DNA from: Sanchytrium tribonematis
Taxonomy: Eukaryota > Sanchytriomycota > Sanchytriomycetes > Sanchytriales > Sanchytriaceae
NCBI GenBank assembly: GCA_018985235.1
Contig: JADGIG010000019.1
Coordinates: 1-44,879, forward strand
Reading direction: 5' to 3'
Length of the DNA stretch: 44,879 bases
Under the pieces are notes generated by a model, which was not told the DNA's origin, did no database searches, and saw nothing but the letters and a program-made list of their open reading frames with translations. Below are positions 2,627 through 41,900 of this stretch, in pieces. Position numbers and translations under genes: made by a program. Each line of letters starts with the position of its first letter. Position 1 is the stretch's first letter.

Positions 2627-3593
2627 TTATTGGTTGTTTATTTTATTAGTGAAAATGATTCTATGCACTAAAGCGAGATCATAAACGTGTTGTTGTAGAT
2701 GAAGCTCAAGCTGGGTATTAAGTAATTTTGAAAATGATTGCGATTTTGCGATTAAATCGGCTGCATCAAGTGCGGGAAAACTTCTGAGCAGCTTAACAGG
2801 AGAAGGGTGGTGTAAAATTTCCTCCTTCATTCTTACCAACTGGCCAACTACACAAAGTATATTTAAATGAACTCCATATGCAAAGTAGTAGTCCCAAAGT
2901 TTTAAAACTTCATCTAAAGGCGTTACACAAGAACTCAATGTCATAATTACTATATTAATAGCAGATACGAGGGAAAGCATATATTTCGGCCGATAATCGT
3001 TTTGATTTCAGATATGTAAACAACTCTCTGTCTATCAGTTCCAAACACTTGTCCAAAAGTATCGCACCAGCTCTCACACCCTCGGTATTCTTCTGAACAT
3101 ATGTGGGACACTTGTTTTGGATTAGTTGAGAAAAACTATAGAAAGCATCAACTTCATTCATTGTGTAAAGAAAGGGAGCCAGTAAAGCGTTCATACCTTG
3201 AACGTAAAAAAATAAACATTTTGTCGAGTCTGCTGCAAATGTAAGTTTTTGTTCTTTCATGTCATTTACAAAAGCATTTAAAACTCTGATTAGCATATGC
3301 TCGTCCACAACTGCCTTGAATTGTTCGTCTGTTTTTAAAGTTCTATGGGTATCATTTTTGATTTTTCCATAAGCATCACTGGCTCCGATCTGCACCAAGG
3401 AAATATATTTCTTTGAAGAAACAAACTTGACATTTAATAATATTTTCCACACTTTTCCTCGAATACTTGTATCAGATGCATCTAATTTACTGTTGCTTAA
3501 TTTTTCTCCACTCAGTATTTTCTCGATTATAACTTTGGTAGTGTTTTGGGCTTCAATTAAAGTTTTGTTTATAGCATCGACTTCAAGGCTCAT
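2627..3593 (-). CDS. BUB2: BUB2-like TBC-domain GTPase-activating protein (one 19-nt intron)
   Basis: Two exons, 3593-2969 and 2949-2627, give 315 residues, close to yeast Bub2 (306). Bub2 with Bfa1 is the GAP for the small GTPase Tem1 and holds the mitotic exit network/SIN off at the spindle pole until the spindle is placed correctly. Recognisable TBC blocks are RGKVWKILL, SDAYGKIKNDTHRT, YVQGMNALLAPFLY, and AEIYAFPLIMTLSSC spanning the splice site. Without splicing the frame ends just after AFPRICY; removing 2950-2968 joins AFP to LIMTLSSCVTPLDEVLKLWDY, as in the family. AATAAA lies in the last codons of the gene. It is divergent from the next gene with 31 bp between the starts. Confidence 0.88.
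2950..2968 (-). other. 19-nt spliceosomal intron in BUB2
   Basis: Read on the minus strand this is GTATCTGCTATTAATATAG, phase 1. Removing it rejoins the two frames inside a conserved TBC block. It has T12 and A14 like the other introns in the window. Confidence 0.9.
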
Positions 3594-3624
3594 CTGAAGT
3601 ATTGTTTCAAATTAAAAAAGTTGA

Positions 3625-6533: not shown

Positions 6534-6654
6534 TCTGGTTTCGTGGAGTCTTCCTTTAAAACGATCTTTCAAGTCCTAATGTAATGAGTCTGCCTTAGCT
6601 ATTCGTTTGTTGAATGTATTGAAATTGATAAGCCAAATTGCACCAAATTGAAAC

Positions 6655-7530: not shown

Positions 7531-7542
7531 CCTCCTATTTCA

Positions 7543-8115: not shown

Positions 8116-8149
8116 ATAAATATTTCTGAAACAATTGTCAAGCCCAGAA

Positions 8150-8942
8150 ATGTTATTACGCAAAGACATCCAGTCAAAGAAACAAATACTTCGCGAGCGC
8201 TATTTAATTGAAAAAGAAATTGTTCTCTTTCTTAAAAATGGACTAGACGAAGAAGCAATCCTCTCTCATAAACAATATAAAACAAAAATCGATAGTGAAA
8301 GACAAAATTTTATTAAGAGGAAGTTACACCAGCAAAAGCTTCGAGATTCTAGTGATTATCAGCGTGAAATTTATGAATTACAGAACGAAATTATTAGAAA
8401 ATTGCAATTTTCCCAAATTGTTTTGAAGGAAGATAATATTGACAATTGGAAACACCAATACAATGAACTTGAGCTTCTTCGGAATCGGTTTAGGAATAGG
8501 TGCTTACCAAGAAAGGATATCTTAGAACGGGAAATTTTACAATTGCAGTCCGCTTTAGAATTTAAGATAGGTTTAGAAAATGATAAGAGTCAAAAATTGC
8601 TTCAAAATGTCCAAAAAATTCAAATGCAGCAGAAAATCGATTCGAAAAAGAAAAATGCTTTGGAGGAAAGTGAAAGAATTCTTCAGAAAAAACAATTGGA
8701 AGAAGAATTAGCTAAATTTAAAGAATTTCAAAAAGTCGAGAATGAAAAATTGAGAAAAAGGCAACAAAGTTTTATCGAAGATCTCAATTTTCAAGTAAAA
8801 GAGAAAGAAAGAGCAAAAGTTGAGCAAAGTTTAAAAAATTTTAACGACTTAGAGCAGCAACTGGTAAATATTGTTAACTAAGAAACAAATAGAACTAGAA
8901 AAGTCTTGGTTGAAGGATGAAATAAATAAAATGCGTTCTTAA
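8150..8942 (+). CDS. Coiled-coil protein, CCDC112-like (one 19-nt intron)
   Basis: Exons 8150-8863 and 8883-8942 give 257 residues, almost all highly charged coiled coil (Lys/Glu/Gln-rich; LPRKDILEREILQLQSALEFK; repeated EELAKFKEFQ-type heptads). Without splicing, the frame would end at VNIVN inside the heptads. Removing 8864-8882 continues the coiled coil as QQLKQIELEKSWLKDEINKM and ends at TAA. The pattern resembles CCDC112-type centriolar/ciliary proteins, which would fit a flagellated fungus, but coiled coils are poor evidence of identity. Start: the frame extends upstream only to a TTG at 8135, so the first ATG at 8150 is used. Confidence 0.7.
8864..8882 (+). other. 19-nt intron in the coiled-coil gene
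   Basis: GTAAATATTGTTAACTAAG, phase 0, with AAG rather than TAG at its end. TTAAC at positions 11-15 is a good branch-point match with A14 as the branch base. Excision extends the coiled coil by 19 residues. Confidence 0.8.
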
Positions 8943-8988
8943 AGGAAAGAAAAATAAAAATAATGGTTCAGTTTCCCCGCAAATATAG

Positions 8989-10063
<1,075 letters not shown>

Positions 10064-10073
10064 GTAAATTTAC

Positions 10074-10340: not shown

Positions 10341-10367
10341 GGAGGGTTTCTGACAAATTTTGCCAAT

Positions 10368-10670: not shown

Positions 10671-10688
10671 CAAGGAGATTTTTCCAAG

Positions 10689-14414: not shown

Positions 14415-14452
14415 AAATTCAATAAAAGTGAAACTTTATTGTGAAATATTCA

Positions 14453-17188: not shown

Positions 17189-18104
17189 TTATTTATTCAA
17201 CGCATGTTTTCTGTACTGCTCCAATTTTTCATTCTCGTAACCCATTTTTGATACTCTTTTCAAAAGCACCACCGGAACCAACTTAAGAATAAATACAATA
17301 ATTCTCCAAAATCCAGGAACAATTACGTTTCTACGTCTGTATTTCATGGCACATGAAATTTTATCGGCTGCGACATCCGCAGAAGTTCGAAATGGAATAC
17401 CTGTTAGCCAGTCATTCATCTTAGTTGTTACAAGACCAGGTCGAATATTTGTGGTCCAAAATCCATCAAGATACAATTCATTATGCACTCCTTCAATAAA
17501 AAAGTCCAATCCTTTTTTTGAGGTACCGTAAGAAACAATTTGAGGCTGTGGCTAATTTAAAATAATATACTCTTGAGCTAGAGATCGAAGAGACTGTTAC
17601 GATGTATGGGTTAAACACCTTTTCACGTTTTGCATACTTAACAAATGCAGAAATGATCGCTATTGGCCCCATGAGGTTGGTTTCTAGGACTGGCTTAGCT
17701 CTTTTGAAATAGTCCTCATCTCCAAGCTCGTGAATATCACTTATTCCTCCATTGACGACAATCGTATCAATGGTACCCAGACTTTTGTGAACATCTTCAA
17801 GCAAAGGTTCAGCGTCATTAAAATGCGTTAAATCATATTTCCTGACAGAAACAGAAACATTGGGATATACATCTTGAATTTCTTTCTTTAGCGCATTGAG
17901 ATCGTCTATTTTACGGGATGCAATTGCAATGCCGATGTTTCTTGATTTTGAATGCTTTGCCAATGAATGCACAAGACTTCGTCCGATGCCGGAACTCGCA
18001 CCAATTATCAAATAGTTTCTAGAAAGAGGCTTTCTTACGAATGGCAGCTTTCTGAGAAGAGTGTAAATAAACTCGTTAAAAATTTGAATTAAAATTTCAA
18101 GCAT
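17189..18104 (-). CDS. Short-chain dehydrogenase/reductase, ER membrane type (one 19-nt intron)
   Basis: Exons 18104-17571 and 17551-17189 give 298 residues. A hydrophobic N-terminus (LEILIQIFNEFIYTLL) precedes the NAD(P) fold GASSGIGRSL; then DTIVVNGGISD (NNAG-equivalent), VTVSSISS (catalytic Ser) and, only after splicing, SYGTSKKGLDFF, which contains the catalytic YxxxK. NIRPGLVTTKM follows. Unspliced, the protein would end before the active site. Resembles DHRS7B or 3-ketosphinganine-reductase-like SDRs; substrate unknown. The frame extends upstream to a GTG at 18155, but the first ATG is 18104. PSO2 starts divergently 32 bp away, and the TAA stop abuts the ALG1 ATG. Confidence 0.88.
17552..17570 (-). 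other. 19-nt intron in the SDR gene
   Basis: Minus strand GTATATTATTTTAAATTAG, phase 0. Excision brings the catalytic YGTSK motif into frame. Confidence 0.95.
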
Positions 18105-19546: not shown

Positions 19547-19553
19547 GAATTTT

Positions 19554-22083: not shown

Positions 22084-24592
22084 TTAAATCAAATCGGAAA
22101 CTTGAAATACTTCGTCGATGAGGCTACCATTGTCATTACTTTTGTAGTTCAATTTCAATCTCAATTTAATTGGAGCCTATATTATTTTAAATTACATTTG
22201 AGGGGTTTTGAACAGTAAATTCTTGAACAGCTTCTGCATTTACGGAAATATCTGACTTTGAAAGCGGCTGAATTGCCAGCTTTTGAGTTTTTGGTACAGC
22301 AATTAAAAGATTCACCTGAGACACACCGGAAAAAACAGTGTCGTTGATAATTTTGGCTCTAAATTGTACTTCTTCCAACCTTTCCTTTGGAGAATGCAGC
22401 TGAAGTAGAACACGTACGCCACCCTTATTATATACTTCCTTCGCTGGTTGTTCGGTTTTAGCCGGGGTCTTGACAGGGGCTGGGCTAGATCCAAATAATT
22501 CACTCATAAGATCGTTGACCTGTTGTTGCTTGGCATCAGTAACTGCTGTTTTTGCAGGGCTACTGGCACCTAATACATCAAGCAATTGGTTGACATTTGG
22601 ATCTACTTCAGGAGATAATTCATCCGGTGTTCCTTGATCATTTGTGGGTTCAGGCAACTTGTACTCCAAGGCTGGAATTGCAGCCAGCACTTCTCCCAAT
22701 TGAGAGGGATTTAAAACTTCTAAAAATTTCTTATATTCCATGGCACGCTGTTGGCAGTCAGTATTCATGTCGCGTTCATATTTTGTAAAAATGTTCTTGA
22801 TATCGTCAATAAGTTTTGGAAATTTCTGACAAACCTTAAATAAGGCTGTAAAAGCTAACAACTTTGTTTGTCCCGCAACTTCTTTCTTATTATATGTCTC
22901 ATCAACACCAGCAGCAGTAATAGCATCGTAAAACGGTTCGACAGATCCGCCTAGACGTCCTTCGGGTTTACAATTTAAATCTTGTTGTTTTAGTATTGAT
23001 TCCAATTGATTAATAATATCTTTTGGAAGTAATTGGGGTTGACCCAGGGTATCTAATTGTGGCTCGAGCAATTTTTGAGCATATTCGCCCAAGCACCATG
23101 CAGTTACTTGCGAAATGGCCGTGTTATTGATATTCGACTTCAAGCTTTCATACAAAGTCCTGGTTGAAAACCCTTGTAAGTCAGGTATATTTGATATCAA
23201 CTTGATAAATAATGACATATGCTCTTCTTTAACATGTTGATTTGCGAGTCTTAAAACCTCTACTAAAGTTTCAATATGCCATTTTCTATTTGGAGCAAAT
23301 TTTTCGGTGACCTGAAAACATCTAGTAACAATATAACTTTTAAATTCTGAATCCGAGATTTCCAGGAATGTCACCAGTTCCTTCATCATTGCTCTAATAT
23401 TAGTAGCATTGATCAACGTAAAAGACAAGTCCAGAGCGCGTCGTCGAATGCTAGTGTCTGGATCTTTTAAACATTCGACAATAATTGTTCGGTGTCGTTG
23501 AACAGCCTTCATGTCTTGCTCCACACATCTTGACAAAGTTTGCAATGCCACGTACTTCATATTATTGTCTTTGTTACTCAAAAATTTTCCAAGTATATTA
23601 ATTCCTAATACTCTCAAAGATTGGTCGCTTTTAATTTCTAAAATAGTTCTTGCAGTTTCGTACAAGATAGCACTACCCACATTTCTAGAAGCATCTGTTT
23701 TGGTCGCAACTTGGGCTAATATGTCATGAATTTGATCAGAAATTTCTTTTGAATCCTTACCAATAATTCGAAAAAACATCAATATTTTACATTGCAAAAA
23801 CGGGTCAGTAATTCCAGTCACGTCATGCTCCGGAGAGTATCCCGCAGTGATCAAATTTCTCATAAGCCTCAACATGCTTTGTACTTGTTGAGCGGCTTCT
23901 GGAACATGAAGGCTCGGATTTATTTGACAAACCTCAATTAAAACAGACAACGATGTAATAACGACTCCATGATTTTTGTCATTAATTAAATTCAAACATT
24001 TGGCAGCATATCTTTCTGACATTTCAGGCAATTTCTTTAAAACTCTAACAGCACATAGAGCCGCCTTTTTTCTTATATAACTGGACGAGCTTCCTAATAA
24101 TTTCTCAACTTCGGAGCTAAGATCTCTTAACATTTCCTCACTTCCAATATTACCTAATGTTGATAAAGCCAATCCACTGATAAATAAATTTTGATGATTC
24201 AAATCGTTTTTGAGGCAATTGGTGACCAACGTCAAGACTTCCTGATTTTCATCTAATAGCAACATAACACCAAGGTAGCCCAATCGTTTGTCAGAGAACC
24301 GTGGTGAAGCAACTAATTTGACACACTCCATTTGCCCAAAATGAGCAGAATATCCTAACATATGAATATATAACAATTTTTGAATGTTCATGGCTCTCAA
24401 ATCAGCACCTAACATTTGTGCTGCTTGTGCCGTTATCCCAGATACCCCGGATGCGGATCCAGTACCTTCTTTAATAAAGGTTCTAATTGAGGCTGACTCT
24501 TTTGCAATAATTGCGCGTTCTTCAGCTAATGTTTTAGCATTTCGGACTTGTCTAATTAAAGATTTTAAACTAGTAGGAACAAATGATGACAT
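22084..24592 (-). CDS. APL4: AP-1 complex gamma-adaptin (one 19-nt intron)
   Basis: Large subunit of the AP-1 clathrin adaptor for TGN-endosome sorting. Exons 24592-22196 and 22176-22084 give 829 residues, as in yeast (832) and human (822). The N-terminal trunk begins LIRQVRNAKTLAEERAII and LGYLGVMLLLDE; a hinge with Pro/Ala-rich sequence follows, then the gamma-ear from about residue 715 (GGVRVLLQLHSP). The unspliced frame stops inside the ear (QNPSNVI). Removing 22177-22195 continues it as NAPIKLRLKLNYKS and ends at TAA, matching the last ear strands. AATAAA follows the stop immediately. With VPS45 and KEX2 this is part of a TGN/endosome set on the same strand. Confidence 0.95.
22177..22195 (-). 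other. 19-nt intron in gamma-adaptin, near the 3' end
   Basis: Minus strand GTAATTTAAAATAATATAG, phase 0, leaving a last exon of 93 nt that encodes the end of the gamma-ear. Confidence 0.93.
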
Positions 24593-24666: not shown

Positions 24667-26152
24667 CTAATTTTTTATTAAGGATTCTATAAATTCTTCA
24701 GAACGTAAAACGCAATTTCCGCCTATTAATACTGATGGTCCCTTTTCTTTCTTGAGTTTATCGTTAAGTAAGTGTATTGCTCTTATTTCGTCATATGTAA
24801 TTCCACCTATGATGTTGACTATTATATTTTGAGGCCTATATTATGATTAATTACCGTATGACACCAGGTAAATTTTGCTGACCAGGCTGCTGATAAGGAT
24901 ATTGTGACTCCATTAGTCTACCTTTTATTAAATCATTGATCAATTTGATTACTAGAGGCTCGTGTTGAGTAAAAACATTATCTATTCCTTTCAGTCCTTT
25001 CATCATTTGCTGACCTTTTTTGAACAAGGCTTGAGTCATATTCATTGGAGTTTTATTCGTACTCATTAGGTGCACTAAAGACATGTATTTTTCCAATCCT
25101 AGTTGCCGCAGGCTGCTTGTAAATTCCTGAACATATGTGTTATACCGAACCGAGTAAAGTAAAATTAGTCTCACTTTGTCAATGTTGTTGATAGAACTTG
25201 AAAGCAATTTCCTTATTTGTTCGGCACACCATTCTTCGTTATCTTCACACGCCAATGATTGTTCAATTTCTCCAATCGTCATGAGTTGATTTTTATTTAC
25301 GATTTCTGATAAAATAGTCATAACATTCACATGAGTTTCTACATTAGCTTGTAAATCTTTTAATTCGGGATATTTGTTTATAAACTGTTTAATGTCTTGT
25401 AAAGTATTTAGATTTCCTAGTGAAGCATATTGATTTTGATATTTTGCTACCAATTCCTTAATTTTGACACCAATGTCGCCAAAAGATGCGAATTTGTTCT
25501 GGTTATAAAAATTGTCATTAGTGAAAGAAACCAAAGGCTGATTGATTTTATAATTTTCAATTCCAATTAGATCATGAATCATGGCTTGATAATACCAAGA
25601 GTGGAGTAATGGCGTCAAATAGTCAAAAGATCTATTCAAATTAAGTATCACACATGGTTGACCTGAACAAGAAGGTAATTGCAAGTTTAATCCTCTTAAT
25701 GCTGGGCTCCACTGAAACGCTTGCAATAATGACCCCACTGATGATGCTAGTGCATTTTTAGGCTGATTAAAAGCATATTCATCTAATGCAATTACATCCA
25801 TATAAAATTCTAAGACTTGGGTAATGCGCTCATGGATATCTGCTTGGGCAATTTGTTCTATCCATTGTGAAGTTGTTTCTGAGACTAAACACAAAATATA
25901 TTGAGAGTAGTGAGGGTTTTGGAGCTCTGTAATTATATCTTGTAAGCTTGAAGGATGTATCATAACAATGGCTGTCCAACTCAAGTGTGTTTGAGCTGGT
26001 AATTTTCCAATATGAAATACATTATGTTGCAGAAAGTAACTCATTGGAACGAAACTAAGTATGTTTAAGCAATAATCATCAAGTAATAATACCTTGTAAC
26101 CGTCGTTGCTCAAAACGCCTTTTAAATAATTCTGAAGTAAATTGAAAATCAT
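24667..26152 (-). CDS. VPS45: VPS45 Sec1/Munc18 protein (one 19-nt intron)
   Basis: SM protein that chaperones the Tlg2-type syntaxin in TGN/endosome fusion. Exons 26152-24855 and 24835-24667 give 488 residues, against about 575 in yeast and human. Key blocks: LDEYAFNQPKNALASSVGSLLQ, LNRSFDYLTPLLHSWYYQAMIHDLIGI (DR..D..TPLL), GLKGIDNVFTQHEPLV and IKGRLMESQYPY. Unspliced, the frame ends at NLPGVIR. Removing 24836-24854 gives RPQNIIVNIIGGITYDEIRAIHLLN and a closing SEEFIESLIKN, the canonical VPS45 end. About 85 residues are missing compared with the family, mainly mid-protein loops. Confidence 0.94.
24836..24854 (-). other. 19-nt intron in VPS45
   Basis: Minus strand GTAATTAATCATAATATAG, phase 2, the only phase-2 case. 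Excision restores the conserved RPQ-IIV/GG-TY block. Confidence 0.95.
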
Positions 26153-26191: not shown

Positions 26192-27487
26192 TTAAGAATA
26201 AGCAGTTTCTGGGTATTTGTCTGCATAAATCGACTCAGTAATATAAGTGACCTTGACTACCTTACCATCAAAAAATCTTCCATTTATCTTCTTATATGCA
26301 TCTATAGCCTGGGATACAACTTCAAATTTAGCGAATACCAATTCGTCTGATAGATTTAAGTTATAGTGGAGTAATTTGCCACTCAACTCTAACTCTAATT
26401 TAACGTCCTCCGAAATTTCTGACAATTCCTGCGCAGGCAAATCTTTATTAAACATATTGGACAAAGTCAAACACCTTGATTCGGTTCCATTGCTAATTTT
26501 AGATGCAAGCATCTGCATCACACGATTACTGGCATCCTTCTTAGAGTACCTGATAGGCTTTGCTTTGTTTGGTTGGACTTCCATCTTTTCAGAGGATACC
26601 TTCATCGGCATTCCCATAAATTCGAAGTTATTCATCTCATTTATAGCTTTTTTTGCATCTTGTTTATTTTCAAAAGTAATAAATGCAGTGCCATTTGATT
26701 GACCATTTTGATCTTTGCTCATGTAGACGCTCTTTATCGGTCCGAATTCGCCAAATAAGTCTTGGAGATCAGATTCATTAACTGAGGTATGTAATTGCGA
26801 CACCATTGCCTGTCCCAAAACATCAACATATTCATCTTTCCCCCCGTCTTCATCCACGGGCTCTACCGTCAAAGGACCATGTTGAAAAATACTTCCATCC
26901 ATTTCCAGAGCTTTGGGAATAGAATCACCATGTAAAAACTCTACGTAAGCAATTCCTTTTGACCTATTGCTGCTTTTGTCATAAACGATCTTAACTTCCC
27001 TAACTTTTCCGACACGGTTAAAATAACGAGAAATATCAAACTCATTTGCTCGAGTATTAATTTGACTCACTAGCACGGTTTTGAGTCGCCTATCACCTTG
27101 CATAAATGCTGTACCATTTGATGGAACCGCATCACTCATACTCTCTCTATGACTTTGATTATAATTATCCCTCTTCAAGTATCTGTCTCTACTGCCATCG
27201 CTTTCACGCCTTTCGAAGTCTCTGGATCTTCCTTGACTATAACTGTCTCTTCTATCATCACTACTGTAGCCTCTAGGACCCCCACGGGCAGCAAACCTTT
27301 CATTATACCTATCATTTAGTTTAGGTTTATCAATCGTTGTATTTGTTGCTTTGGGCTCAGAAATCGGTTTGGTCGTTTCCGCTGCACTTGGAGAGTTTTT
27401 AGACTCGGCATTATCGTTGGTGGCCACTTTGCGTTGCTGATTTTGAATTTTTTTTAATTTTTCGCGAAGTGCAAGTGATGATTTCAT
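26192..27487 (-). CDS. RBM39/Rsd1-like splicing factor with three RRMs
   Basis: 431 residues. A Ser/Arg/Asp-rich N-terminus (about 70-125, RDSYSQGRSRDFERRESDGS) precedes RRM1 (TVLVSQINTRANEFDISRYF ... SKGIAYVEF), RRM2 (AMVSQLHTSVNESDLQDLFGEFG ... GTAFITFE) and a C-terminal UHM-like RRM3 (LTLSNMFNK ... DELVFAKFEVVSQAIDAYKKINGRFFDGKVVKVTYI). This order matches RBM39/CAPER and fission yeast Rsd1, which bind U2AF and SF3b at 3' splice sites. A general PABP-like protein is less likely because of the UHM-type last domain. AATAAA overlaps the TAA stop. Of interest given the 19-nt introns around it. Confidence 0.82.
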   Translation of the reverse strand: MKSSLALREKLKKIQNQQRKVATNDNAESKNSPSAAETTKPISEPKATNTTIDKPKLNDRYNERFAARGGPRGYSSDDRRDSYSQGRSRDFERRESDGSRDRYLKRDNYNQSHRESMSDAVPSNGTAFMQGDRRLKTVLVSQINTRANEFDISRYFNRVGKVREVKIVYDKSSNRSKGIAYVEFLHGDSIPKALEMDGSIFQHGPLTVEPVDEDGGKDEYVDVLGQAMVSQLHTSVNESDLQDLFGEFGPIKSVYMSKDQNGQSNGTAFITFENKQDAKKAINEMNNFEFMGMPMKVSSEKMEVQPNKAKPIRYSKKDASNRVMQMLASKISNGTESRCLTLSNMFNKDLPAQELSEISEDVKLELELSGKLLHYNLNLSDELVFAKFEVVSQAIDAYKKINGRFFDGKVVKVTYITESIYADKYPETAYS

Positions 27488-27532
27488 GTTTCAACTCCAT
27501 TGTGAATAGGCTATTAAAATTTATTTTCAATC

Positions 27533-28561: not shown

Positions 28562-28579
28562 GTTTTTCAAAACACTCGG

Positions 28580-29336: not shown

Positions 29337-29360
29337 AGATTATTACATTGTATAATTAGT

Positions 29361-31356
29361 TTAAAGTTTCTCAACATATTTACGGGGCGGTGATGAATGA
29401 CTTATACTCTGGAGCTCAAAATCATCTTCGAAAAATTCGTTGGCATCGTGTAAAATTTCTGTCTCTTCATTGTCATCCTCTTTTAGTCGATGATGAGACT
29501 TGACTCCTTTAAAGTAATATATTCCAAATCCGAGAAACCCCAAAACAGTCAATACAGCAAGTAGTGTACCAAATCCTCCTTTATCTTCGAGGGAAGGATT
29601 CGGTTTCTGATTATTATCAGTATCGGGAATCGTGGTAGTTGAATTCTGGGGCTTAGTGGTATTCGTAATAACATTAGTTTTGTTGCCTTCTAGAGACGCA
29701 CCCATTAAAGTCAGCTGCCATTGTACAAACTTTCCTGTTTTTTTGTTGGAATTAGAATCCTTCACTTTGATTGTCCAGGAGCCAATTTTAATGTCATCAA
29801 AATGAACCACTGTAGACATTGTCCAATCTTTGAGAGTATCAGAATGATAATCTCCAGGTCTGGGTTTAGCTAAAAATGAAGTGATTTTGGATGGTGAAAT
29901 AAGTGTTATTTCCAAATCTCCGCGCCGCTGATGCTCAATTGTTAAAGTAACAGTCACATGTTCTAGATCTCCAAAATTTACACTCGAGAGATTCTCTTGA
30001 GTAATATTATAAATTGAAGAAAGTTCCTCATTATCTCCAAAGTTCTGGTTTACCGCAATTATAGGGCTCTTAAATTGAGTTTCGCGATTAACAAGTTTCC
30101 ATGTCTTGGCAATATCAACCATAGCCGAAGCGTCCAGAAGACCATATCCAAATGTATGGCTAAATTTACGGTTTTTCGCGACTACCTGCCAATCATCTAT
30201 GGCCGCTTCGAATGGTCTTGCTGACAACAGCACCACATGCTGCACGTCTCTCCAAGTTAGATCAGGTCTGACAGATAGAAATAAGGCAATCATGCCCGCA
30301 GCTAAAGGAGCAGCTGCGGAAGTCCCTCCATGTTTTTCAACGCAGTCAGGGTACTCACCATTCCTCCTCCAATTTGTGGTCACAATGGACTTCCCATGAC
30401 CTGATGAGAAAGTCACTCCCAATTGAGCTGCACAATTTTCTGTGTAGGGCGGTTTTGTAAATTCAATATCAGTTGCACCTATGGTAACACTCCATGGCAA
30501 ATTCTAAATAAAAAAATAAAACCGTATATCCATCATAGTTGCAATCATCACTATGCATTCCACCATTACCGCTAGCGAATACAAATATGTTTCCTTTGCC
30601 ATTTCTTCCTTTTTCAATGCCTTTCTTGAATGCAGCAAAAACTGGTTCAGGTGGTCCATCAACAGTAGATCCATCATCGCTCGGGCCCCAACTACAAGAA
30701 TAAATATCGTTTTTATCCATTGCATGGTTCACAGCCAAAGCCTCATCTGCGGTAGTCAGGGCTCCACCCAAAATTCTAATGCCGGATATTGTAGCTTTAG
30801 GTGCTATTCCTAGCCCACATTTTGAATTAATCGCAGCGGCAATCTCTCCGGCGCATCTAGTGCCATGATAATCATCATAAAGAGTTGGAATTGGTAAATC
30901 CCTGTGATCATTGAAATCGTGACTGCATTCTTTGCAAAAATTTAGCAAATCTTCATGAGTAAAATCCACACCATCGTCTAATATAGCCACCGTGATATTG
31001 GCTCCCATATACCCATTTTTCCATGCGGGATATGTATTTAAATGATGATCAGATGTAAAATGCCATTGTTTATCAAACATTGGATCATTTATGTTTAGCA
31101 ATTTTTTGATCTCTTCATTGCTTACATTCTTGGGAACTGTTTTACCGAGCTCCCAATCTCCACGTTTAAATAGCCTTTTTTGCTTTTCGTCTTTTAAGAA
31201 ATATGTGTATTCGTCTCGTTTAAATAAAGTTTGATTGGTTTGTACGATAAAATAATTATCATAGATATGGTAGGCGTCAGGAGTTGGAGGCTCGCCGCTG
31301 GTTTGAATGATATATTGATTCATACCGGCTGAAAGAAGAGGATAAAGATATTTCAT
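29361..31356 (-). CDS. KEX2: KEX2-like proprotein convertase (one 19-nt intron)
   Basis: Golgi subtilisin-type protease cutting after Lys-Arg/Arg-Arg in secreted proproteins. Exons 31356-30523 and 30503-29361 give 658 residues (yeast 814). A KR site (LFKRGDWE, about residue 60) fits autocatalytic propeptide removal. Catalytic triad: Asp in AILDDGVDF (about 127), His in DYHGTRCAGE (about 165), Ser in HGGTSAAAPLA (about 341); oxyanion Asn in FASGNGG. Splicing joins DGYT to NLPWSVTIGATD. A P-domain, Thr/Asn-rich linker, membrane span (about 585-605) and acidic cytosolic tail follow. The N-terminal signal peptide from ATG 31356 is weak (MKYLYPLLSAG), so the start is less certain. Confidence 0.95.
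30504..30522 (-). other. 19-nt intron in KEX2 with divergent 5' site
   Basis: Minus strand GTTTTATTTTTTTATTTAG, phase 0. It begins GTTTTA rather than GTAWWT but keeps T12, A14 and the TAG end. Excision restores the conserved DGYTN..WSVT block. Confidence 0.93.
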
Positions 31357-31398
31357 TATTTGCAAAATGTTTCAAGTTTGAAAATGTCGCAACATTTA

Positions 31399-33211
31399 TT
31401 ACAAGTGAATGCCAATTGAGGATTTTTCAATTTTTAATACATCACAAATTTGATTAATGTATTGTAAAAACTGCGACTTTTCGAGAAATTTGTCGGTATT
31501 CGTCACCTCCATCATTGAGTGTCCTTTATTGGACAATTCCATTAAAATAATAGCAGTAAAAATATCAATATAGTTAAGCTCATTCCTAAAGCAGATCTTT
31601 GCGTGAGCTTCAGAGAGTCTTAATAGACTTTCTACCATTCTGACCGTGGCTCTACCCTGAGAAACAAAATTGTGGTCAGCTCTTTTGTAAGAGTAATATT
31701 TCTTAAAAATCACAGCAAGTTTCTCTGAACACTTCGGATAGAATTGTGACTTGGAATAGCCAATAAATTCTCTTAAAGTACTTTCGTCAAAGCTGAAATT
31801 AGGTGACAAATCCAAGGTTTCTCGATTCAAAATAAAATCAGCCATTAAATTGTCTTGATTTTCATCAACTTCATTTTCCATAAAGAAAATTAAATCAAAA
31901 CGACTTATTAGAGAAGTGGCCATATTTAAATTTTCAGCAATATTCGAGATGTCTCTATTGTAATTCGGGTTACAAGCGGCAACTACTGAGCATCTTGTGT
32001 TTAATGTTGTTCGAATCCCGGCCTTGGTAACTGATAAAGTCTGCTGCTCCATAGCTTCATGGATGGAAATCTGATCGTCCTTCCTGATTGTTGAGAATTC
32101 ATCAATGCAGCAAACTCCTTTGTCTGCTAGTACCAATGCACCAGCTTCCAATGTCCATTGACCCCCTTCTTTGAGTGCAGTTGCAGTCAAGCCGGCTTTC
32201 GTGCTTCCGAGTCCTGTCGTTAAAACTGATCGAGGTATAATCCTGATAATTGACTGAAGAAAATGAGACTTCGCCGTTCCTGGATGTCCTACAAGAAGCA
32301 AATGTGGTTCTCCGCGAATTTTCTTGTTTTCGGTGTGCCTTGAGCAACCGCCAACTAAAGCCAACAACACGGCCAGTTTTATATGTTCTAGTCCTAATAT
32401 ATTGGGGCAAAAACTAGAAACTAAACGTCTTCTTTTATCGAAATCACTATTCACACTTGACCAAATATTGGCAACATCGTTATCAGATTCAATTCGCGTT
32501 TTCCACTTGTACGTTATTTGCGTATATATACCACTCAATATAGATTTTGTCAAAATTGTTTTTAAATCGCCGTCGCATATGCCCTGTTACCATAATTGAG
32601 TCACCTGGTTGACAGGAATCAATCAAATCATTTTGAAGAATCACTGTAATGGCTTTTGGAACCTTGTCTGTTATAATATGACTGTGCTCCTGTAATTTGA
32701 TTTCCTGGAAATCAATATATTCCAATGCTTTCTGTATTTTTTTGAATTTGTTATTTGTGCATAAGTCACCATCCCTCAAATTATTACATCGTTTTGGTAT
32801 GTCTGCCTGATTAAATAAATCTGGAGAAGCTTCCCTTTTAATTATATTTCTACACCTAGAGCACTCAAAATAATAGTATTTTTCAAGTGATTGTACTGAT
32901 CCACATCTAAGAACTGTTCCACTAAAACATATCCATCCAATGCAATAATTTATAGCAAAGCTATGGGTATATAATCTATTTAAATTCGTTATCCTTGCAT
33001 AAATTGTTTTAGGAAAGATAAAGTGCTTGTTTTGCTTCTCAAAGTCTTTCAACGGAAAAATGGCGGATAATTTAAATGTAGGTCCGTTTTCTTGAATATA
33101 CTTGGCTTTCTTTGGGTTATTATGAGCAATGTCTAAAAAATCTACATTGATACCATAGCATTTTTCAGTATTTCCTGACAGATAAATCTGTTTTAATTCT
33201 TCAAGATCCAT
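31399..33211 (-). CDS. MCM9: MCM9-like helicase, frame broken once at about 32491
   Basis: About 603 residues if the frame is continuous. The N-terminal MCM domain has a zinc-finger-like CSRC...C...C set (about 110-150) and an OB region ending YANNVQVENAN. The AAA+ domain has GHPGTAKSHFL (Walker A), KGVCCIDEF (Walker B), EAMEQQTLSVTKAGI and SRFDLIF (arginine-finger region). LGSTKAGLTATALKEGGQWTLEAGALVL matches MCM9, not MCM2-8. MCM9 with MCM8 acts in homologous recombination and mismatch repair. The frame closes at a TGA (32491-32489); ignoring one base there continues without loss as NANESDNDVANIW. No GT-AG 19-mer fits. Start at ATG 33211; the frame's earlier start is a TTG. Confidence 0.85.
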
Positions 33212-33237
33212 GGTTTTGTTACACTTGGAAAATTGGG

Positions 33238-34029: not shown

Positions 34030-34038
34030 AATGGGTAT

Positions 34039-37000
34039 TTATTGTAATACTAGCAATATTGCAATCCAAGAAAATGACATCAATGAGCCTGAATTGAGGT
34101 TGACTCCTGTTGGTAAAGATCCTTGACCGTTGAGATACAACGACTTGTATAACTCACTGTATGCACTAATTTCACTCTCGTTTAAAGCACGAGTGAATGA
34201 AGTTCCAACTGCGATTCCAGCTCCGGTAGCCTCTGCAGATTGAGAATTTAGGGTTCTGATATCCGAGCTTACACTAACATCAAATACAATTGGTGTTCTA
34301 ACTAACCTTCTGGAAGACATCATATCTCCTACAGACACGACTTCAACATCAGAGGAACTTGATTGTAAGTTGTTTAGGCTACTCTTAGAGTTTGAAGATG
34401 ATACTTGCGTTGGGAGTGATTTTGATGACACATAGCCAGAAATTGATCCGGTTTGAGAAGGTCTGTTAGAAAAACCAGACAACACACTATTTGTCGCATC
34501 CTTGCTTGCAGCTGAATGAATTGTGGTGAATTTTCCAGAATTTGTTGAAAAGCTTGATTTTGATGAAGAAAGAGAGCTTTTGTTTAAAACTGAGGCTGCT
34601 TTGTTTGCAGTAGCATGAGTAATTCCAGCTAAAGCCTCCAAATAAAGTGCAGTAGAATCAGCTTCATTTTGCAAATACAAAGCAGTTGACTCCAGTTGAT
34701 TCTGTAAGTAAACAGCAGTTGACTCGAGTTCGTTTTGAAGATACAACGCAGTACTTATCTCTTCATTCTGAAGATATACAGCGGTAGATTCAAGCTCATT
34801 TTGTAGATACACAGCCGTGCTTTCTAAATTTGCTTGCTCGATAATAGCTGTTATTTCTGCTTGAGCAGCACTCCAAACTCCCAAACTCTCGGTCAGAATT
34901 TGTTGTTCAACACTCCAGAATGCCAAACTTTCATCCAATAAAGCTGCTTGGTTCATGCTCCATACTCCTAAACTTTCATCCAAGATTTGTTGCTCAACAC
35001 TCCAAACTGCAAGGGAATCTTGTAACCAAGCCTCAGTGGACAAGTATTCATTAATCATAATTTCTTCAGTAATAGCAGCTTGGTCTAATAAATATTGATA
35101 AGTAGAGTCAGCTTCAGCTTGAAGATAGATATCTGTGCTTGCTTGCTCATTTTCTGACCAAGCAATCTCAGCAGCAGTATATTCAGCTTGAATTTGGCTC
35201 CAGCCTTCAAGACTGATTGTTAAAGCAGCTTGTGCATCCAAGTATTCAGCAGTAGATTGTGCTTCAGCTGCACTTACTTGTACTAAATAGTCCAAATGGT
35301 CTAAATATGATTGATAAATCTGTTCGGAATGAGCAGCGGACCAAGCTTCAAGTGAAGCAGTTAAGTCTTGTAAAGAAGCAGTTAATTCTGCTTGACTAGC
35401 TAAATATTCTTGTGTTGATGCTTCTTCATTTGCTGACCATCCTGCCAAAGACTCTTGTAAGGAAGCCGTCAATTCTGCCTGCTTTGCGAGATATTCTTGA
35501 GTGGATAGTTCTTCATTAGCAGACCAGACAATTAGTGATTCTTGGAGAGAAGCTGCTGCCTCAACCTGACTAGCCAAGTATTCTTGTGTTGAAGCTTCTT
35601 CATTTGCTGACCAGGCTACTAAAGATTCTTGAAGCGATGCAGTTGCTTCTGCTTGACTAGCTAAATATTCTTGTGTTGAAGCTTCTTCATTAGCTGACCA
35701 AGCAACTAAAGACTCCTGAAGTGATGCAGTAGCTTCGGCTTGACTAGCTAAATAATCTTGAGTTGACAAGTCCTCGTTAGCTGACCAATTGGCCAAAGAT
35801 TCTTGGAGTGATTGGTAAACCTCTTCAGAATGAGCTACGCTCCATTCATGCAAAGAAGCAGACGATTCAGCTTGATTTGCAAGATATTCTTGAGTAGAGG
35901 CATCTTCGTTAGCGCTCCAAACTGCAAGCGATTCTTGTAAACTTTGGTATAAAATATCGGCATTGTTTTGGCTCCAAGCAACGAGACTTTCAGTCAAAGC
36001 TTCTTGTACGGCCAAATAATCAGCAGTGGATTGCTCTTGAGCAGCCAAGTAATCTGCAGTAGATTGCTCTTCCACAGCACTCCAAACAGCTAAGGAATCT
36101 TGCAAACTTTGCAAATGATCCAAGTAATTTTGATAATTGAGCTCCGAATTGGCAGCACTCCACTCTTGTAAACTTTGAGTTATTTCTGCTTGAACCGCTG
36201 ACCATTCTGTCAATGAAGCAGCTAGCTCGTCAGCATGTACTGCACTCCACTCATCCAGACTTGCTTGTAAACTTTCGTATTGAGACTCGGACAAACTTAA
36301 GGAATGATCTAAACTACTATCATGAATGCTTTGAGAACGATCGTGTATACTTTGTGATATACTGATAGAATGGTCTTTGCTACTTTGAGTTAAGGAAGCA
36401 GCTTTGCTAGATTGAGTGTATTGGTAAGCTTTGATACTGGAAGTGACACTTGCAGCTTTGTCATTGATACTTTGAGTCAAAGAAGCTAATTTGCTAGAAT
36501 ATAAACTTAGACTAGATGTTATACTTGCGTCACGAGCACTTTGGCTTGCCGTAATGCTAGCAGCCTTATCACTAATACTTTGTGTCAATGATGCAAGTTT
36601 GCTAGAGTATAAACTTAAACTTGCTGTAATACTAGCATCTTTGGCACTTTGACTTGCTGTGACACTGGCGTCGTGTAGACTCTGACTAGTTGCCAATGAG
36701 GCTAGTTTACTAGAGTATAAGCTCAAACTTAAACTTTGGCTTGCTGTGACACTGGCATCATGAGCACTTTGACTTGCTGTAACGCTAGCATCGTGGACAC
36801 TTTGACTGGATGCCAATGAAGCAAGTTTGCTAGAGTATAGACTCATGCTTAAGCTCTGACTGGCACTTATAGAAGCAAGTTTACTTGAGTATAAGCTGAG
36901 GCTCAAACTTTGACTAGCTGTTACACTTGCATCATGTGCGCTGATACTTGCAGTCAAACTGGAAGCCAAACTTTGGGTTACGCTAATAGCCCAAAAATAT

Positions 37001-38112
37001 TGACTTGTAGACAAACTCGAGTAATGATCTAGTGATGAGCTGTAAACACTTGCGGCAGTACTTGCAGATCGTATTTGATCAATTCGGAATAGAGCAAATC
37101 CCTGACTTACTTTTGTTGACGTGACTGCGACGTGGAAATTACAGGTAGAAGTTGTTGAATCAAATTCAGCAACGTCACAACTCAAACTTTTCCAACAATT
37201 TGCCGCACATGTACTAATATCTTTAGCAATATCAACAGAAGAGCTGGAGGAAATTTTTACTGCGGTTTCCAATACAGGCTTGTAAAGCATTGGCGCATCT
37301 TTTACGGTAAAAAATTCATTGGTAAATTTTTTCGTGATGCTTATCGTGGATAATCCCGAGTCGTCGATACTTTGACAAGACAAAGTCAAATAGTCGTAAA
37401 ATACGTATTTGCAGTTATCTCTTCCTGCGTTCACACAACTCGTCAAACAATCATACAAACTTGAAGTTGTTATGGTTGATGTACCAGTAACGCTATACGC
37501 ATAATCGGATGTGGCATAATCCAAATTATCGAAGAATTTATGGACTATTGTAAAAACATCCACAGAAGCATCAACACTCTTAGTTTCGTCTAGTGCTCCA
37601 CCAGTCAACGTATATGCGAACTGAACTGCCAAAGATGAAATTGGAATGGCTAATTTTTGTTTTGCAGCAGATAAAACACCTGATTGATGGAAGGCATAGG
37701 TATAAGTTGTTCCCAATACGGTCTTGTAGTTGGCATTCGAAACAGAAGTAACTGCACCAGTCAATTGAACGTATGGTTGATGCAACCAACCACCTAGCAT
37801 TTCATAACGATCAATTCCAGCTGCAGTGGGAGCATTTGCACTAGCAAATTGCGTTTTTGCATACGAGGTGTATGCAGAGTCTGCTATTTTGTAAATACCA
37901 GTAGAGTACAACTCTGAATAAGCATAACAAATTTTAGATGCTGAATTATAAGAGTATCCCGCACAATTAGCATCTAAATCACAAACTCCAAGACATGCAG
38001 ATGCAGTAACCGTTGCTCCAGACTTTGAATAGAACTTGGCACCTTGGAAGTAAGCACCGTTTATGGTCACATATGTCGACGCAGATATCGTCGCGCCCAG
38101 GACCCATAACAT
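34039..38112 (-). CDS. Large repeat-rich secreted protein with PAN/apple-like modules and GPI-type tail
   Basis: 1357 residues. A short leader (MLWVLGATISAS) opens the ATG 38112 frame; earlier codons trace to a TTG. Three Cys-containing modules resembling PAN/apple domains lie at about residues 40-65, 215-250 and 295-330 (for example CLGVCDLDANCAGYSYN). Three repeat blocks follow: Ser-rich LYSSKLASL/HDASVTASQS (about 384-604), 29-residue WSANEEASTQEYLASQ units (about 719-916) and 11-residue ESTAVYLQNEL units (about 1091-1160). A Ser/Asn-rich stalk ends in a small-residue site and the hydrophobic tail SFSWIAILLVLQ, typical of GPI attachment. Probably a cell-surface or spore/cyst-wall adhesin; no orthologue recognised. 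The AATAAA overlaps its TAA stop. Confidence 0.85.
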   Translation of the reverse strand: MLWVLGATISASTYVTINGAYFQGAKFYSKSGATVTASACLGVCDLDANCAGYSYNSASKICYAYSELYSTGIYKIADSAYTSYAKTQFASANAPTAAGIDRYEMLGGWLHQPYVQLTGAVTSVSNANYKTVLGTTYTYAFHQSGVLSAAKQKLAIPISSLAVQFAYTLTGGALDETKSVDASVDVFTIVHKFFDNLDYATSDYAYSVTGTSTITTSSLYDCLTSCVNAGRDNCKYVFYDYLTLSCQSIDDSGLSTISITKKFTNEFFTVKDAPMLYKPVLETAVKISSSSSVDIAKDISTCAANCWKSLSCDVAEFDSTTSTCNFHVAVTSTKVSQGFALFRIDQIRSASTAASVYSSSLDHYSSLSTSQYFWAISVTQSLASSLTASISAHDASVTASQSLSLSLYSSKLASISASQSLSMSLYSSKLASLASSQSVHDASVTASQSAHDASVTASQSLSLSLYSSKLASLATSQSLHDASVTASQSAKDASITASLSLYSSKLASLTQSISDKAASITASQSARDASITSSLSLYSSKLASLTQSINDKAASVTSSIKAYQYTQSSKAASLTQSSKDHSISISQSIHDRSQSIHDSSLDHSLSLSESQYESLQASLDEWSAVHADELAASLTEWSAVQAEITQSLQEWSAANSELNYQNYLDHLQSLQDSLAVWSAVEEQSTADYLAAQEQSTADYLAVQEALTESLVAWSQNNADILYQSLQESLAVWSANEDASTQEYLANQAESSASLHEWSVAHSEEVYQSLQESLANWSANEDLSTQDYLASQAEATASLQESLVAWSANEEASTQEYLASQAEATASLQESLVAWSANEEASTQEYLASQVEAAASLQESLIVWSANEELSTQEYLAKQAELTASLQESLAGWSANEEASTQEYLASQAELTASLQDLTASLEAWSAAHSEQIYQSYLDHLDYLVQVSAAEAQSTAEYLDAQAALTISLEGWSQIQAEYTAAEIAWSENEQASTDIYLQAEADSTYQYLLDQAAITEEIMINEYLSTEAWLQDSLAVWSVEQQILDESLGVWSMNQAALLDESLAFWSVEQQILTESLGVWSAAQAEITAIIEQANLESTAVYLQNELESTAVYLQNEEISTALYLQNELESTAVYLQNQLESTALYLQNEADSTALYLEALAGITHATANKAASVLNKSSLSSSKSSFSTNSGKFTTIHSAASKDATNSVLSGFSNRPSQTGSISGYVSSKSLPTQVSSSNSKSSLNNLQSSSSDVEVVSVGDMMSSRRLVRTPIVFDVSVSSDIRTLNSQSAEATGAGIAVGTSFTRALNESEISAYSELYKSLYLNGQGSLPTGVNLNSGSLMSFSWIAILLVLQ
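34634..34838 (-). repeat. Six 33-nt repeats (11-aa YLQNELESTAV units)
   Basis: Tandem coding repeats within the surface protein; the consensus is roughly ESTAVYLQNEL with synonymous drift between copies, so selection acts on the protein. Predicted amphipathic helix with an 11-residue period. Confidence 0.8.
35365..35955 (-). repeat. 87-nt repeats (29-aa WSANEEASTQEYLASQ units)
   Basis: At least five near-exact 29-residue units (ESL-x-x-WSANEE-x-STQEYLASQAE-x-TASLQ) plus more diverged copies on both sides. Neighbouring copies are nearly identical in DNA, pointing to recent expansion. Confidence 0.85.
36300..36960 (-). repeat. Ser-rich repeats (LYSSKLASL / HDASVTASQS)
   Basis: Interleaved units of SLSLSLYSSKLASL, HDASVTASQS, KDASITAS and TQSISDKAAS in the surface protein, with codon differences among copies. 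The high Ser content suggests heavy O-glycosylation. Confidence 0.8.
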
Positions 38113-38318
38113 TTGTGCCAAAAGATGGGCCCATCTATTTAAATGATGGAAAGCCACCAAGTGGCAAAATTAAGCGAATCATCTTTCTTAAAAATTGGAA
38201 TATTCTAAATGCTAGTGTTTTTAGTTTGCTTGAATGTCAATGTCAATAGTGACCATTTTGGAACAAGCTCTTTTTAATTTTTTCTGTTTTTTAAAATTCA
38301 AATGAAGACTTCCCCTAC
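38113..38318. promoter_or_regulatory. Divergent spacer between the surface-protein gene and LEA1
   Basis: The longest gene-free stretch. No RNA gene or conserved protein is visible. It must hold both start regions. A six-codon upstream frame, ATG at 38302, ends in a TGA that shares two bases with the LEA1 start codon (ATGA). Confidence 0.4.
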
Positions 38319-38915
38319 ATGAGGCTTTCCGTTCCAGTTTTAGAAAATGCACTTACTTATCAAAACCCTTTAAAGGAAGATACTATCGATTTAGACAGAC
38401 TTGGTATAATTGATAGTAACATCAGCATAACAGACGATGTTTATCGATGCGTTAATCTTCAGCGAAATATTATGACAAAAATTATTGTACCATCTTTTGA
38501 GAGATTAACTACATTGTTACTAGCACACAACAAGCTTCAGAGTGTTCACATTAAAGCTCCAAATCTGAGGATTTTGTCTTTAAATAGCAACGCGTTTAGA
38601 GATATTGAAGAAATTATAATTGACAGTTTGAAACTTGAAAATTTGACGCTTTACGACACACCACTAGAAAGTATTAAGCAGTACAGGATATTGGTTTGTC
38701 GAAGATTTAGAAACTTAAGAGTATTAGATTATGAAAAAGTCAGGCTAGTTGAGAAACAAGATACTAGTGAAATTAATACCATACTGCAAAAAGTGGAACC
38801 CAAAGAAGATAAAATTTTATCTGGTTTAAAGAAGCAACTTGTTAACGCGAATACTATGGACGAAATTCAACAAATTGAAAAATTAATTTTATTGCATAAA
38901 CAGAATAAAGCTTAG
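38319..38915 (+). CDS. LEA1: U2 snRNP A' protein (LEA1-type leucine-rich repeat)
   Basis: 198 residues; yeast Lea1 has 238 and human U2A' 255. It pairs with U2B'' on U2 snRNA stem-loop IV and so acts in branch-point recognition. Short LRRs run from about residue 20 to 120 (FERLTTLLLAHNKLQSVHI, PNLRILSLNSNAF, LENLTLYDTPLESIKQYR), followed by the U2A' cap ILVCRRFRNLRVLDYEKVRLVEKQ. The tail LKKQLVNANTMDEIQQIEKLI is the U2A' C-terminal helix. The stop codon abuts the ATG2 stop on the other strand with no spacer. AATAAA (38904-38909) forms the last Asn-Lys codons. Confidence 0.88.
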   Translation: MRLSVPVLENALTYQNPLKEDTIDLDRLGIIDSNISITDDVYRCVNLQRNIMTKIIVPSFERLTTLLLAHNKLQSVHIKAPNLRILSLNSNAFRDIEEIIIDSLKLENLTLYDTPLESIKQYRILVCRRFRNLRVLDYEKVRLVEKQDTSEINTILQKVEPKEDKILSGLKKQLVNANTMDEIQQIEKLILLHKQNKA

Positions 38916-41900
38916 CTATTTATATTTGTCATCCATTGCACTTTTATGATCTGGTTGAATTTGATTTCTCATTCCGAGTAATGTCTTTCCAATCAAATCT
39001 GAGATTCCCACCAGAGGTTTGATAATCACAATTGGTACGGCTTGACTTAAATTGCCCTGTTGATCAGCATATCTAATAGCAATAATGGATTCTGATAGAG
39101 ATTGCTGCAGCACTTTTAAACCACTAAATATGCCTTCTCCGACATTGCTTGGCTGATTGCTGTATTTCGATCTACTAATGGGTATACTTTCTCCATTTGT
39201 TATCATACTTTCCACGTATTTTAAGATTTCTTGAGTCTTTAAAACTGCTTTAGCCCCAAGATTGAGTGATTCACCAGCAGTGGTTTCGAGAAATGAGCCT
39301 AGTCCTTTTTGAATTCCCATTAAAACCCTTCCGTCTGTTTGATATTGCTTGACAGGCATCCACACCAAATCAACAAGGCCACTACCAATATTCGTGACAC
39401 TTCTAATAGGCGCAATACCTAGTGCGGCATTCATCAATTGTTTGTTAAGAGTTGGTAGAATTGACCTGGCAATGACATCACTAATTTGCTCAGGGGTGGC
39501 TTTTCCTACATGTCTGATTTTCGGCAATTCAATCTTAACATTCTCGAAACTAACTAGATTTATCATTTCGATGAAATTTCCAAACTTCAGTCTTTTTAAA
39601 TCAACACCTTTTGGTTTATAGTCTATAACAATAACAGTTGGTAAAATTTCAAATTTACCTAAATAAATATAAATTACCAAAGTATGGGACCTCATTGTCT
39701 TCAGAAGAATCAGATAGTGAGTCGTCATGAAAAGACAAATTCGAATATAAAATGGAAAAATTTAGCAAAAAATTGAGAGTATCTTGATCCAGATTGACTT
39801 TAATAGGCGCAATTTTGACTTCAAAAAAATATTCCTGGGGAAGCGAAGGACTACTTTTTCTTTTCAATTTCAGTTGAATAGAATTTCTGGAATAGCCTCG
39901 CTTTAGGGATGTGCAAAGTTTACCCCAAGTGGAACTTTCTAAGTGATCGACAATCTCGAATAATTCACATCCACAATTAATTTTGAAATCAGAGCTAAAT
40001 TTAGATTTGCTTAATTTAAAATAAGTCTTGAGAAGTTTAATCGACATTAAAGGGCTTAAGCTTCGTTTGGAAAAGGACTCATCGGAGGAAACGGATACAT
40101 CGAAATCAAACCCGTCATAAAGATCAACATTAACATTGACTTGAGTGAAGATACAGAAGGTAAACATTGAAGATTGAGACTTTAAAATCTGATTAAAATA
40201 ATCTGGAATGATTTCCAACGGTCCTGACTCTGCCAAAAAACAGGAAAATCCGTCGCTCATAATTGGGTTATCCAGAACATCCAACAAAACGTCCACTGGC
40301 GGTTTCTCAGGAATACTTCGTGTCGATTCGCATAAATTAGATAAATCTTCTTCCACGAATTCATTTTTACCAAAAGTTTTTGCCAATGCTTTAAAAAAAT
40401 CTGCTAATATCCTTAATGAATCGGGGCAAAAAGAAAAATTGATATTTGTGTCCGATGACTTGATCTTCAATCCCTCAAACGACTCATTTGGATAGACTTT
40501 AATATCCAGAGAATCCATGACGCCTATTTTAACCGATTTGGTTATATTAAAGTAGGATTCTAAATCTTTAAAAGTCAATTCATCAACGTGGGTCATCGAA
40601 GCAATGTGGTCTTCGATCCAAAATTCTATTTTACTACTAAAAATTTTGAAATTGTCATGCACAAATGACTCGAAGTAAACATCATCCAGTTGGCAGTGAA
40701 AAATCGTCGGGTTTTCAATTCCATCGACAGAAACAAGAGAGGATGTAATGTGAGCAGTGACGGATAAATTGGGTTTAATTTGTGAATTAGTGTCAACAGC
40801 GGGCAAGAGATCACGTAAATTCAGATCTATAAGACGTCCCTGGTGTATAAAAAATTGATTATCGCTAAGTTGAACATTGATTTTGGTTGGGTCATTTTGC
40901 ATAGAAAGTAAAAATCTATCTATATCAATATGATCAGTGAATGGACGAACGAATGTTTGCTCATCAGAATCAATAAAATTGATTGAATTTGCCAGACATT
41001 CCAACGAGACAAATTTTCCTATTTTGAGTCCGCAGCGCAAATTGTCTAATTCTATACGAAACCAATTTGTAACAAAACTTGAAGGCAATTCAAAATGAAA
41101 GTGAACCTTTGAAATAGTAAGGTTGATTTCTGCAATGTCTAAAGATTCTTTAGCGGCAAAAAAGACTGATTCATCTAGCGATTCTGCCTCAAGTTTCAGT
41201 TGATGCAAGTAAACCGCTAGATCATAAAGGTTCTGCAAATCGAATTTGTTTGTAGACAAGTAAACGTCTGGCAGGGAGATTTCGACAAGTGGAATTGTGT
41301 TATTAGTATGAAAATTAATCTTGCAATTTTCCTCCAATGCGCGAATATTCATTACACACCTTTCATTGTTTCCTCCAAAATATAATTGAATAGTATCCAA
41401 AATTATTTTTTGAGAATTGTATTCTACATTCTTAATCTCTAATCTAGAGCTAAATTCATTGAGTATCGTTTCAAAATTAATTGTGTTGATAGACATTAAA
41501 AAGTCACTATCTGTCTCATTCTTGCTACTATTCAAAGGCAGATTTGGCCATTTCCTTGGTGTAAAAATGAGGCTTTTGATAGCTTCGGACTGTAATAAAA
41601 CATCAATATCATCAATCAGAATTTTAGATTGCTTAATCCAAATTCCTGGTTCCCTTATTTTTGAATTTATTTGCCAAAGCTCATGAATGCTCTGCTTAAG
41701 CCTTTTGGGGGGCCTTTTACTTGTTATAGACGCAATTTTAGAAAGATCCAAATAAATTTCAGTTTTTTGAATCGCAACATCGTCAATACTACCCATTATA
41801 TCGAAAAAATCAAATTTTAGAGATGGGCGGAGCTCAGAAGGACTAAGATAATAAATTAAAGATATGTGGTCAATGTAAAACAATACTTCTAAAACTCTAT

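Follow-up and report, generated by a model that had tools for sequence, protein, structure and literature searches.

Ultra-short introns, mostly 19 nucleotides long, in the compact genome of a fungus that is very probably a sanchytrid

Introns close to the shortest lengths on record have been described in several lineages. In Stentor coeruleus, introns of 15–16 nucleotides (nt) are bounded by GU..AG and branch at an A in position 10 (15-nt introns) or 11 (16-nt introns); all small nuclear RNAs (snRNAs) are present, and Slu7 and Prp18 are entered as 'N/A' in the accompanying table (PMC9505925). Mikrocytid introns measure 16–17 nt, 217 of 224 being 16 bp (PMC10245619), and those of the Bigelowiella natans nucleomorph span 18–21 nt (PMC6461891) or are simply called '19 nt introns' (PMC2483917). 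Among fungi, the small genomes of Sanchytrium and Amoeboradix have guanine–cytosine (GC) contents of 34.64 and 36.27%, and were assembled with SPAdes and processed with TransDecoder; their published proteins are the product of open reading frame (ORF) calling (PMC8371127). Introns are undescribed in the accessible text of that paper, where the word 'intron' occurs once, in the title of a reference. Here we analyse contig JADGIG010000019.1, a stretch of 44,879 nt referred to as the window, whose GC content (35.2% by base counts) resembles that of the two sanchytrid genomes, and in which a first-pass annotation had pointed to eight 19-nt GT...AG segments that each break a reading frame once.

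Direct reading of the coding strand confirmed a GT...AG segment of exactly 19 nt at all eight sites, two of them on the plus strand and six on the minus strand:

2950..2968, minus strand: intron GTATCTGCTATTAATATAG of a TBC-domain gene (~2627-3593); 19 nt, phase 1
8864..8882, plus strand: intron GTAAATATTGTTAACTAAG of a coiled-coil gene (~8150-8942); 19 nt, phase 0
9590..9608, plus strand: intron GTAAATCAATTTTATTTAG of the GAPDH gene (9019-10063); 19 nt, phase 1; Gp_dh_C (158-315) spans the junction
17552..17570, minus strand: intron GTATATTATTTTAAATTAG of a short-chain dehydrogenase gene (~17189-18104); 19 nt, phase 0; adh_short (32-225) spans the junction
22177..22195, minus strand: intron GTAATTTAAAATAATATAG of the AP-1 gamma adaptin gene (~22084-24592); 19 nt, phase 0; Alpha_adaptinC2 at 719-824
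24836..24854, minus strand: intron GTAATTAATCATAATATAG of a Sec1-family gene (~24667-26152); 19 nt, phase 2; Sec1 (166-488) spans the junction at 436
30504..30522, minus strand: intron GTTTTATTTTTTTATTTAG of a KEX2-like proprotein convertase gene (~29361-31356); 19 nt, phase 0; Peptidase_S8 (118-399) spans the junction
39659..39677, minus strand: intron GTAATTTATATTTATTTAG of ATG2 (~38916-42603); 19 nt, phase 1; ATG2_CAD (46-299 of the tested piece) spans the junction at 146

In every one of the eight genes, spliced translation joins two frames into a single open protein, and a Pfam search of the spliced proteins places a domain across the junction in seven (RabGAP-TBC, Gp_dh_C, adh_short, Sec1, Peptidase_S8, Alpha_adaptinC2 and ATG2_CAD). 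The protein of the TBC-domain gene, for example, grows from 218 to 321 amino acids, and its RabGAP-TBC domain (49-259) runs across the junction at 214. The earlier claim that excision restores conserved protein was thus borne out for these seven; the coiled-coil gene matched no Pfam family, and its intron has the support of frame and motif only. Two names given by the first-pass annotation go beyond the family matches returned by the search: the TBC-domain gene is presumably BUB2-like, and we take the Sec1-family gene to be VPS45.

The eight segments also share a sequence motif. Each has A at position -6 and T at position -8; seven begin with GTA and one with GTT, and seven end in TAG and one in AAG. 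Most of the introns follow a 5' consensus GTAWWT and a 3' consensus YTWAY-N-TAG. Since removal of these GT..AG-bounded segments restores protein, they appear to be of U2 type. We consider it highly probable, judging from the sequence, that they are U2-type spliceosomal introns, and that the fungus, very probably a sanchytrid, has a compacted genome in which nearly all introns visible to the scans are 19 nt long and a minority 20 nt.

The same length stands out in scans of three kinds. When GT-AG candidates of 15–100 nt that join frames and have a motif score above 9 were counted, 18 measured 19 nt, three measured 20 nt and no other length exceeded five; seven controls with wrong dinucleotides gave 0–3 candidates at 19 nt. 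A position matrix built from 20 frame-supported introns (first six and last nine bases, spacer free, threshold 10) was applied to both strands of 257 kb, blind to reading frame, and returned 0, 2, 24, 6, 2 and 0 matches at 17, 18, 19, 20, 21 and 22 nt, respectively, against a background mean of 1.62 per length over 22–60 nt; with wrong dinucleotides, 2–6 matches were obtained at 19 nt. Because 18 of those 24 matches belong to the matrix's own training set, a genome-wide pattern search is the better test. The pattern GTAAWT-N{1,30}-YTWATTTAG, likewise blind to frame, matched 126 times in the 6.34-Mb assembly, compared with 52 times for the reversed pattern. Among the 100 listed of these 126 matches, 71 are 19 nt long, 12 are 20 nt, two are 21 nt, none is 18 nt and 15 have other lengths, of which the pattern permits 27, with no excess above 21 and up to 45 nt; four of the 100 are training introns, and 63 of the 71 listed 19-mers are distinct in sequence. 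Genome-wide, a single length below 25 nt is dominant.

Candidates outside the window were tested in the same way as those within it. We spliced 18 candidate sites drawn from contigs and short loci, and submitted nine of the junctions to Pfam, with a tenth site as coding control. Seven of the nine fall within a domain: two of the three 20-nt junctions (RPB1 and GATA) and five of the six 19-nt junctions (kinase, HEAT, NAD kinase, GH31 and the ferric-reductase NAD domain). The third gene with a 20-mer matched no Pfam family, and in a NOT-like gene (NOT2_3_5 family, presumably NOT3) the junction of the 19-mer lies eight residues outside the domain. Given that RPB1 and GATA domains each contain a 20-nt junction and that 12 of the 100 listed matches are 20 nt long, the idea that the genome uses exactly one length was rejected; what the first-pass annotation had called a fixed-size 19-nt class survives as a genome-wide peak at 19 nt accompanied by a minor length of 20 nt. 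A 21-nt candidate at L004:1906 was also rejected, as it proved to be coding sequence in a ribosomal protein L18 gene: over profile positions 2-172 the score is 242.9 bits unspliced and 229 bits spliced, and the full unspliced ORF reaches 271.2 bits against Ribosomal_L18 (profile 2-188). As a separate observation, the HEAT-repeat gene carries its 19-nt intron (L019:6225-6243, minus strand) inside the repeats, and we take this gene to be SF3B1, a core branch-site factor.

Further evidence comes from other gene copies and from relatives. A second copy of the GAPDH gene shares 83% identity with the exon-1 ORF of the window gene and has, at the same position, a 19-nt intron of another sequence (L002:757-775, contig C99). 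Its ORF contains the EukProt GAPDH P0243 letter for letter, and that protein reads through the 19-mer into a frame-shifted tail. The spliced AP-1 gamma of the window reads NPSN/APIKLRLKL across the junction, colinear with other fungi; in the unspliced AP-1 gamma proteins P0121, P0122 and P0123 homology is lost exactly at the window's intron point, and in P0124 it is lost near that point, with a tail that is not interpretable. By hand back-translation from protein, the GAPDH tail of P0246 is compatible with an intron of 19 nt that sits elsewhere and bears the same 3' motif, the AP-1 gamma tail of P0122 fits 20 nt, with 14 possible, and the GAPDH tail of P0242 requires at least 23 nt at the same GAPDH site as in the window. 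The AP-1 gamma protein also indicates what kind of organism this is. Among the best 120 of 6199 matches, three unannotated relatives at 68–72% come first, followed by named fungi, and all named organisms are fungi; in a tree with no non-fungal outgroup, the window protein and the three relatives group together with full support, near Blastocladiomycota and chytrids. This grouping places the organism among the fungi. Taken together, the genome-wide length peak, the junctions spanned by domains, the snRNAs described below, the second GAPDH copy and the AP-1 gamma proteins of relatives support a uniform ultra-short intron class in what the sequences indicate is a fungus.

Components of a spliceosome were sought in the assembly. 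The snRNA search found a U2 that keeps GUAGUA, a U6 that keeps ACAGAGA and a U1 that begins AUACUUACCU, a perfect 5' end, at a score of 43.7 bits, below the gathering score of 69.5; these candidates for U1, U2 and U6 thus carry the canonical pairing sites. The window has no Rfam match. PRP38 is present, and helicases in the assembly best match Prp22, Prp2 and Prp16. Slu7 and Prp18 gave no match in the 6.34-Mb assembly, in a search made without a positive control. Prp43 is absent from the four OB_NTP_bind matches in the assembly, SF1-HH has no match there, and EF-1alpha has none over the cut-off, so that EF-1alpha either lies outside a partial assembly or has been replaced. For the U2AF65 model, the best match in the genome reaches 51.6 bits against a cut-off of 310.3 and is the RRM gene of the window (26195-27490, minus strand), whose protein has matches among chains of poly(A)-binding proteins, PUF60 and RBM39. 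Elsewhere in the window, positions 34039-38169 (minus strand) encode a single-ORF protein of 1376 amino acids with an N-terminal PAN domain and no further Pfam match.

Several observations weigh against the interpretation as 19–20-nt spliceosomal introns. The window holds a ninth frame break: around position 32,500 (32489-32586), two frames of an MCM-like gene overlap. In a scan of 10–199 nt, no GT-AG segment shorter than 61 nt joins these frames, and 19 GT-AG joins of 61–196 nt do. Since translation in the frame upstream looks plausible right up to its end, a 1-nt indel seems likelier than a longer intron (at least 61 nt), which is formally possible; the earlier statement that introns of other lengths are nowhere required is therefore unproven. 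If this break is an indel, the others could be assembly indels or pseudogene mutations too, with GT..AG segments present by chance. Such an explanation is opposed by a length peak that arises without any use of frames (71 of the 100 listed matches at one length), by the distinct sequences of most listed 19-mers, and by the two GAPDH copies with dissimilar 19-mers at one site; we strongly disfavour it and give it almost no credence.

Another difficult case is an EF-1alpha-like GTPase gene at L025, which we take to be HBS1. Its 19-mer (L025:1485-1503, contig C164) fits the intron consensus but ends in TAT, not TAG. Excision restores DFVPNM/ISGASQ, whereas the three alternative GT-AG segments detected between 15 and 59 nt all fail to keep these residues; the intron-like break ends in AT, not AG, which may be a sequencing error. 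The scans, too, have their limits. A first codon-bias scan, judged too permissive, failed to single out 19 nt (73 candidates at 19, 55 at 20, 53 at 17 and 67 at 22 nt, with several longer lengths above 19, such as 85 at 55 nt), and a second, with 25 at 19, 3 at 18 and 8 at 20 nt, also gave 25 at both 82 and 118 nt and 32 at 115 nt, again without singling out 19. An early scan with an over-strict threshold returned zero GT-AG matches at 19 nt. The frame-joining, matrix and pattern scans all demanded or favoured the motif and would miss introns unlike it, and the motif alone yields false positives, such as the coding 21-mer of the L18 gene.

These points bear on a looser interpretation, in which intron lengths are short but loosely distributed, like those of nucleomorphs, a few longer introns may occur as well, and 19 nt is merely the mode. 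It draws on the 12 listed matches at 20 nt and two at 21 nt, on the back-translated P0242 GAPDH intron of at least 23 nt, on the longer intron that the MCM-like gene could formally contain, and on the restriction of the scans to near-consensus introns. The lack of listed matches at 18 nt and of any excess from above 21 up to 45 nt speaks against it, as does the coding nature of the 21-nt L18 candidate; on balance we find this interpretation unlikely, while leaving it appreciable weight.

Uniform, short, AT-rich segments would also be compatible with a class removed at the DNA level, like the internal eliminated sequences of ciliates, or bypassed in translation, rather than spliced from RNA. 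The GT..AG ends and the branch-like motif oppose DNA elimination, and so does the presence of U1, U2, U6, PRP38 and Prp2-, Prp16- and Prp22-like helicases; we know of no fungus that eliminates such DNA elements, and we judge this account very improbable. Two further reservations concern mechanism. The A at -6, 5 nt before the intron end, is presumed to be the branch nucleotide from its conservation. The absence of Slu7 and Prp18 is weak evidence, because the 6.3 Mb searched are probably part of a genome of 10.5–11.2 Mb and EF-1alpha, Prp43 and SF1-HH are missing as well; incompleteness of the assembly is a live alternative explanation for it.

With splicing of mostly 19-nt introns as the preferred interpretation, the uniform length could be explained as follows. 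Introns would be recognised by a single compact motif; the lower bound on length would be the smallest loop that lets the 5' site and the branch site both dock, and the upper bound would be set by deletion pressure. Should branching occur at the A at -6, the branch would lie 5 nt from the 3' site, and Slu7 and Prp18, whose role is at distant 3' sites, would not be needed. In budding yeast the natural minimum of this distance is 10; Prp18 is described as a ruler that imposes a minimum, and both Slu7 and Prp18 as dispensable at short distances; Cyanidioschyzon merolae (C. merolae) is said to be without both (PMC10711555). The ruler role of Prp18 might even obstruct so short a distance. We hypothesize that a 'ruler-less' spliceosome evolved independently in this fungal lineage, with a branch A at 5 nt, loss of Slu7 and Prp18, introns of 19–20 nt and, through relaxed fidelity at the 3' site, the UAU end of the HBS1-like gene, a tentative proposal that we hold with slightly more doubt than confidence. 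UAU belongs to the class of 3' sites opened in yeast by deleting Prp18. Stentor would then share the position of the branch and the lack of both factors, having arrived at these separately.

Set beside the described systems, the introns resemble those of Stentor in having nearly one length, GU..AG ends and a branch A, presumed in the window genome, at 5 nt from the 3' terminus; neither Slu7 nor Prp18 was found in Stentor or in the probably partial assembly studied here. The two differ in that Stentor is a ciliate with thousands of introns of 15 rather than 19 nt, and in that its branch consensus is weak, whereas YTWAY is strong in the window genome. Mikrocytids also combine uniform, sequence-conserved introns with a reduced parasite genome, but they are Rhizaria, their introns measure 16–17 nt and their spliceosome is far more reduced, with 17–19 proteins and with U2, U4 and U6 identified (PMC10245619). 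The Bigelowiella nucleomorph matches in the size range of its introns; it is a relict endosymbiont nucleus with 865 introns in 373 kb (PMC6461891), and its 5' site motif is not identifiable, whereas that of the window genome is clear.

The first-pass annotation had compared the introns with those of ciliates (15–16 nt) and nucleomorphs (18–21 nt), leaving out the mikrocytids, and had suggested that no such fungus is known and that the class may be new. For fungi this stands within the open-access papers that our searches listed, in which we found no uniform tiny introns in fungi, sanchytrids included; the kind itself is known from Stentor, mikrocytids and the nucleomorph. This is a known kind of intron class in a new kingdom, and it appears to be the first fungal case among lineages with introns near the physical minimum.

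The finding has a practical side, as ORF calling that is blind to introns truncates real genes, the tail of the EukProt P0243 GAPDH being an example. With lengths close to the shortest known, these introns amount to a natural experiment on what can be dispensed with in a spliceosome. They do so in the fungi, for which there is a deep literature on the spliceosome and in which relatives have ordinary introns. They also tie convergence to a testable mechanism, namely a branch-to-3'-site distance below the Prp18 ruler together with the loss of Prp18 and Slu7.

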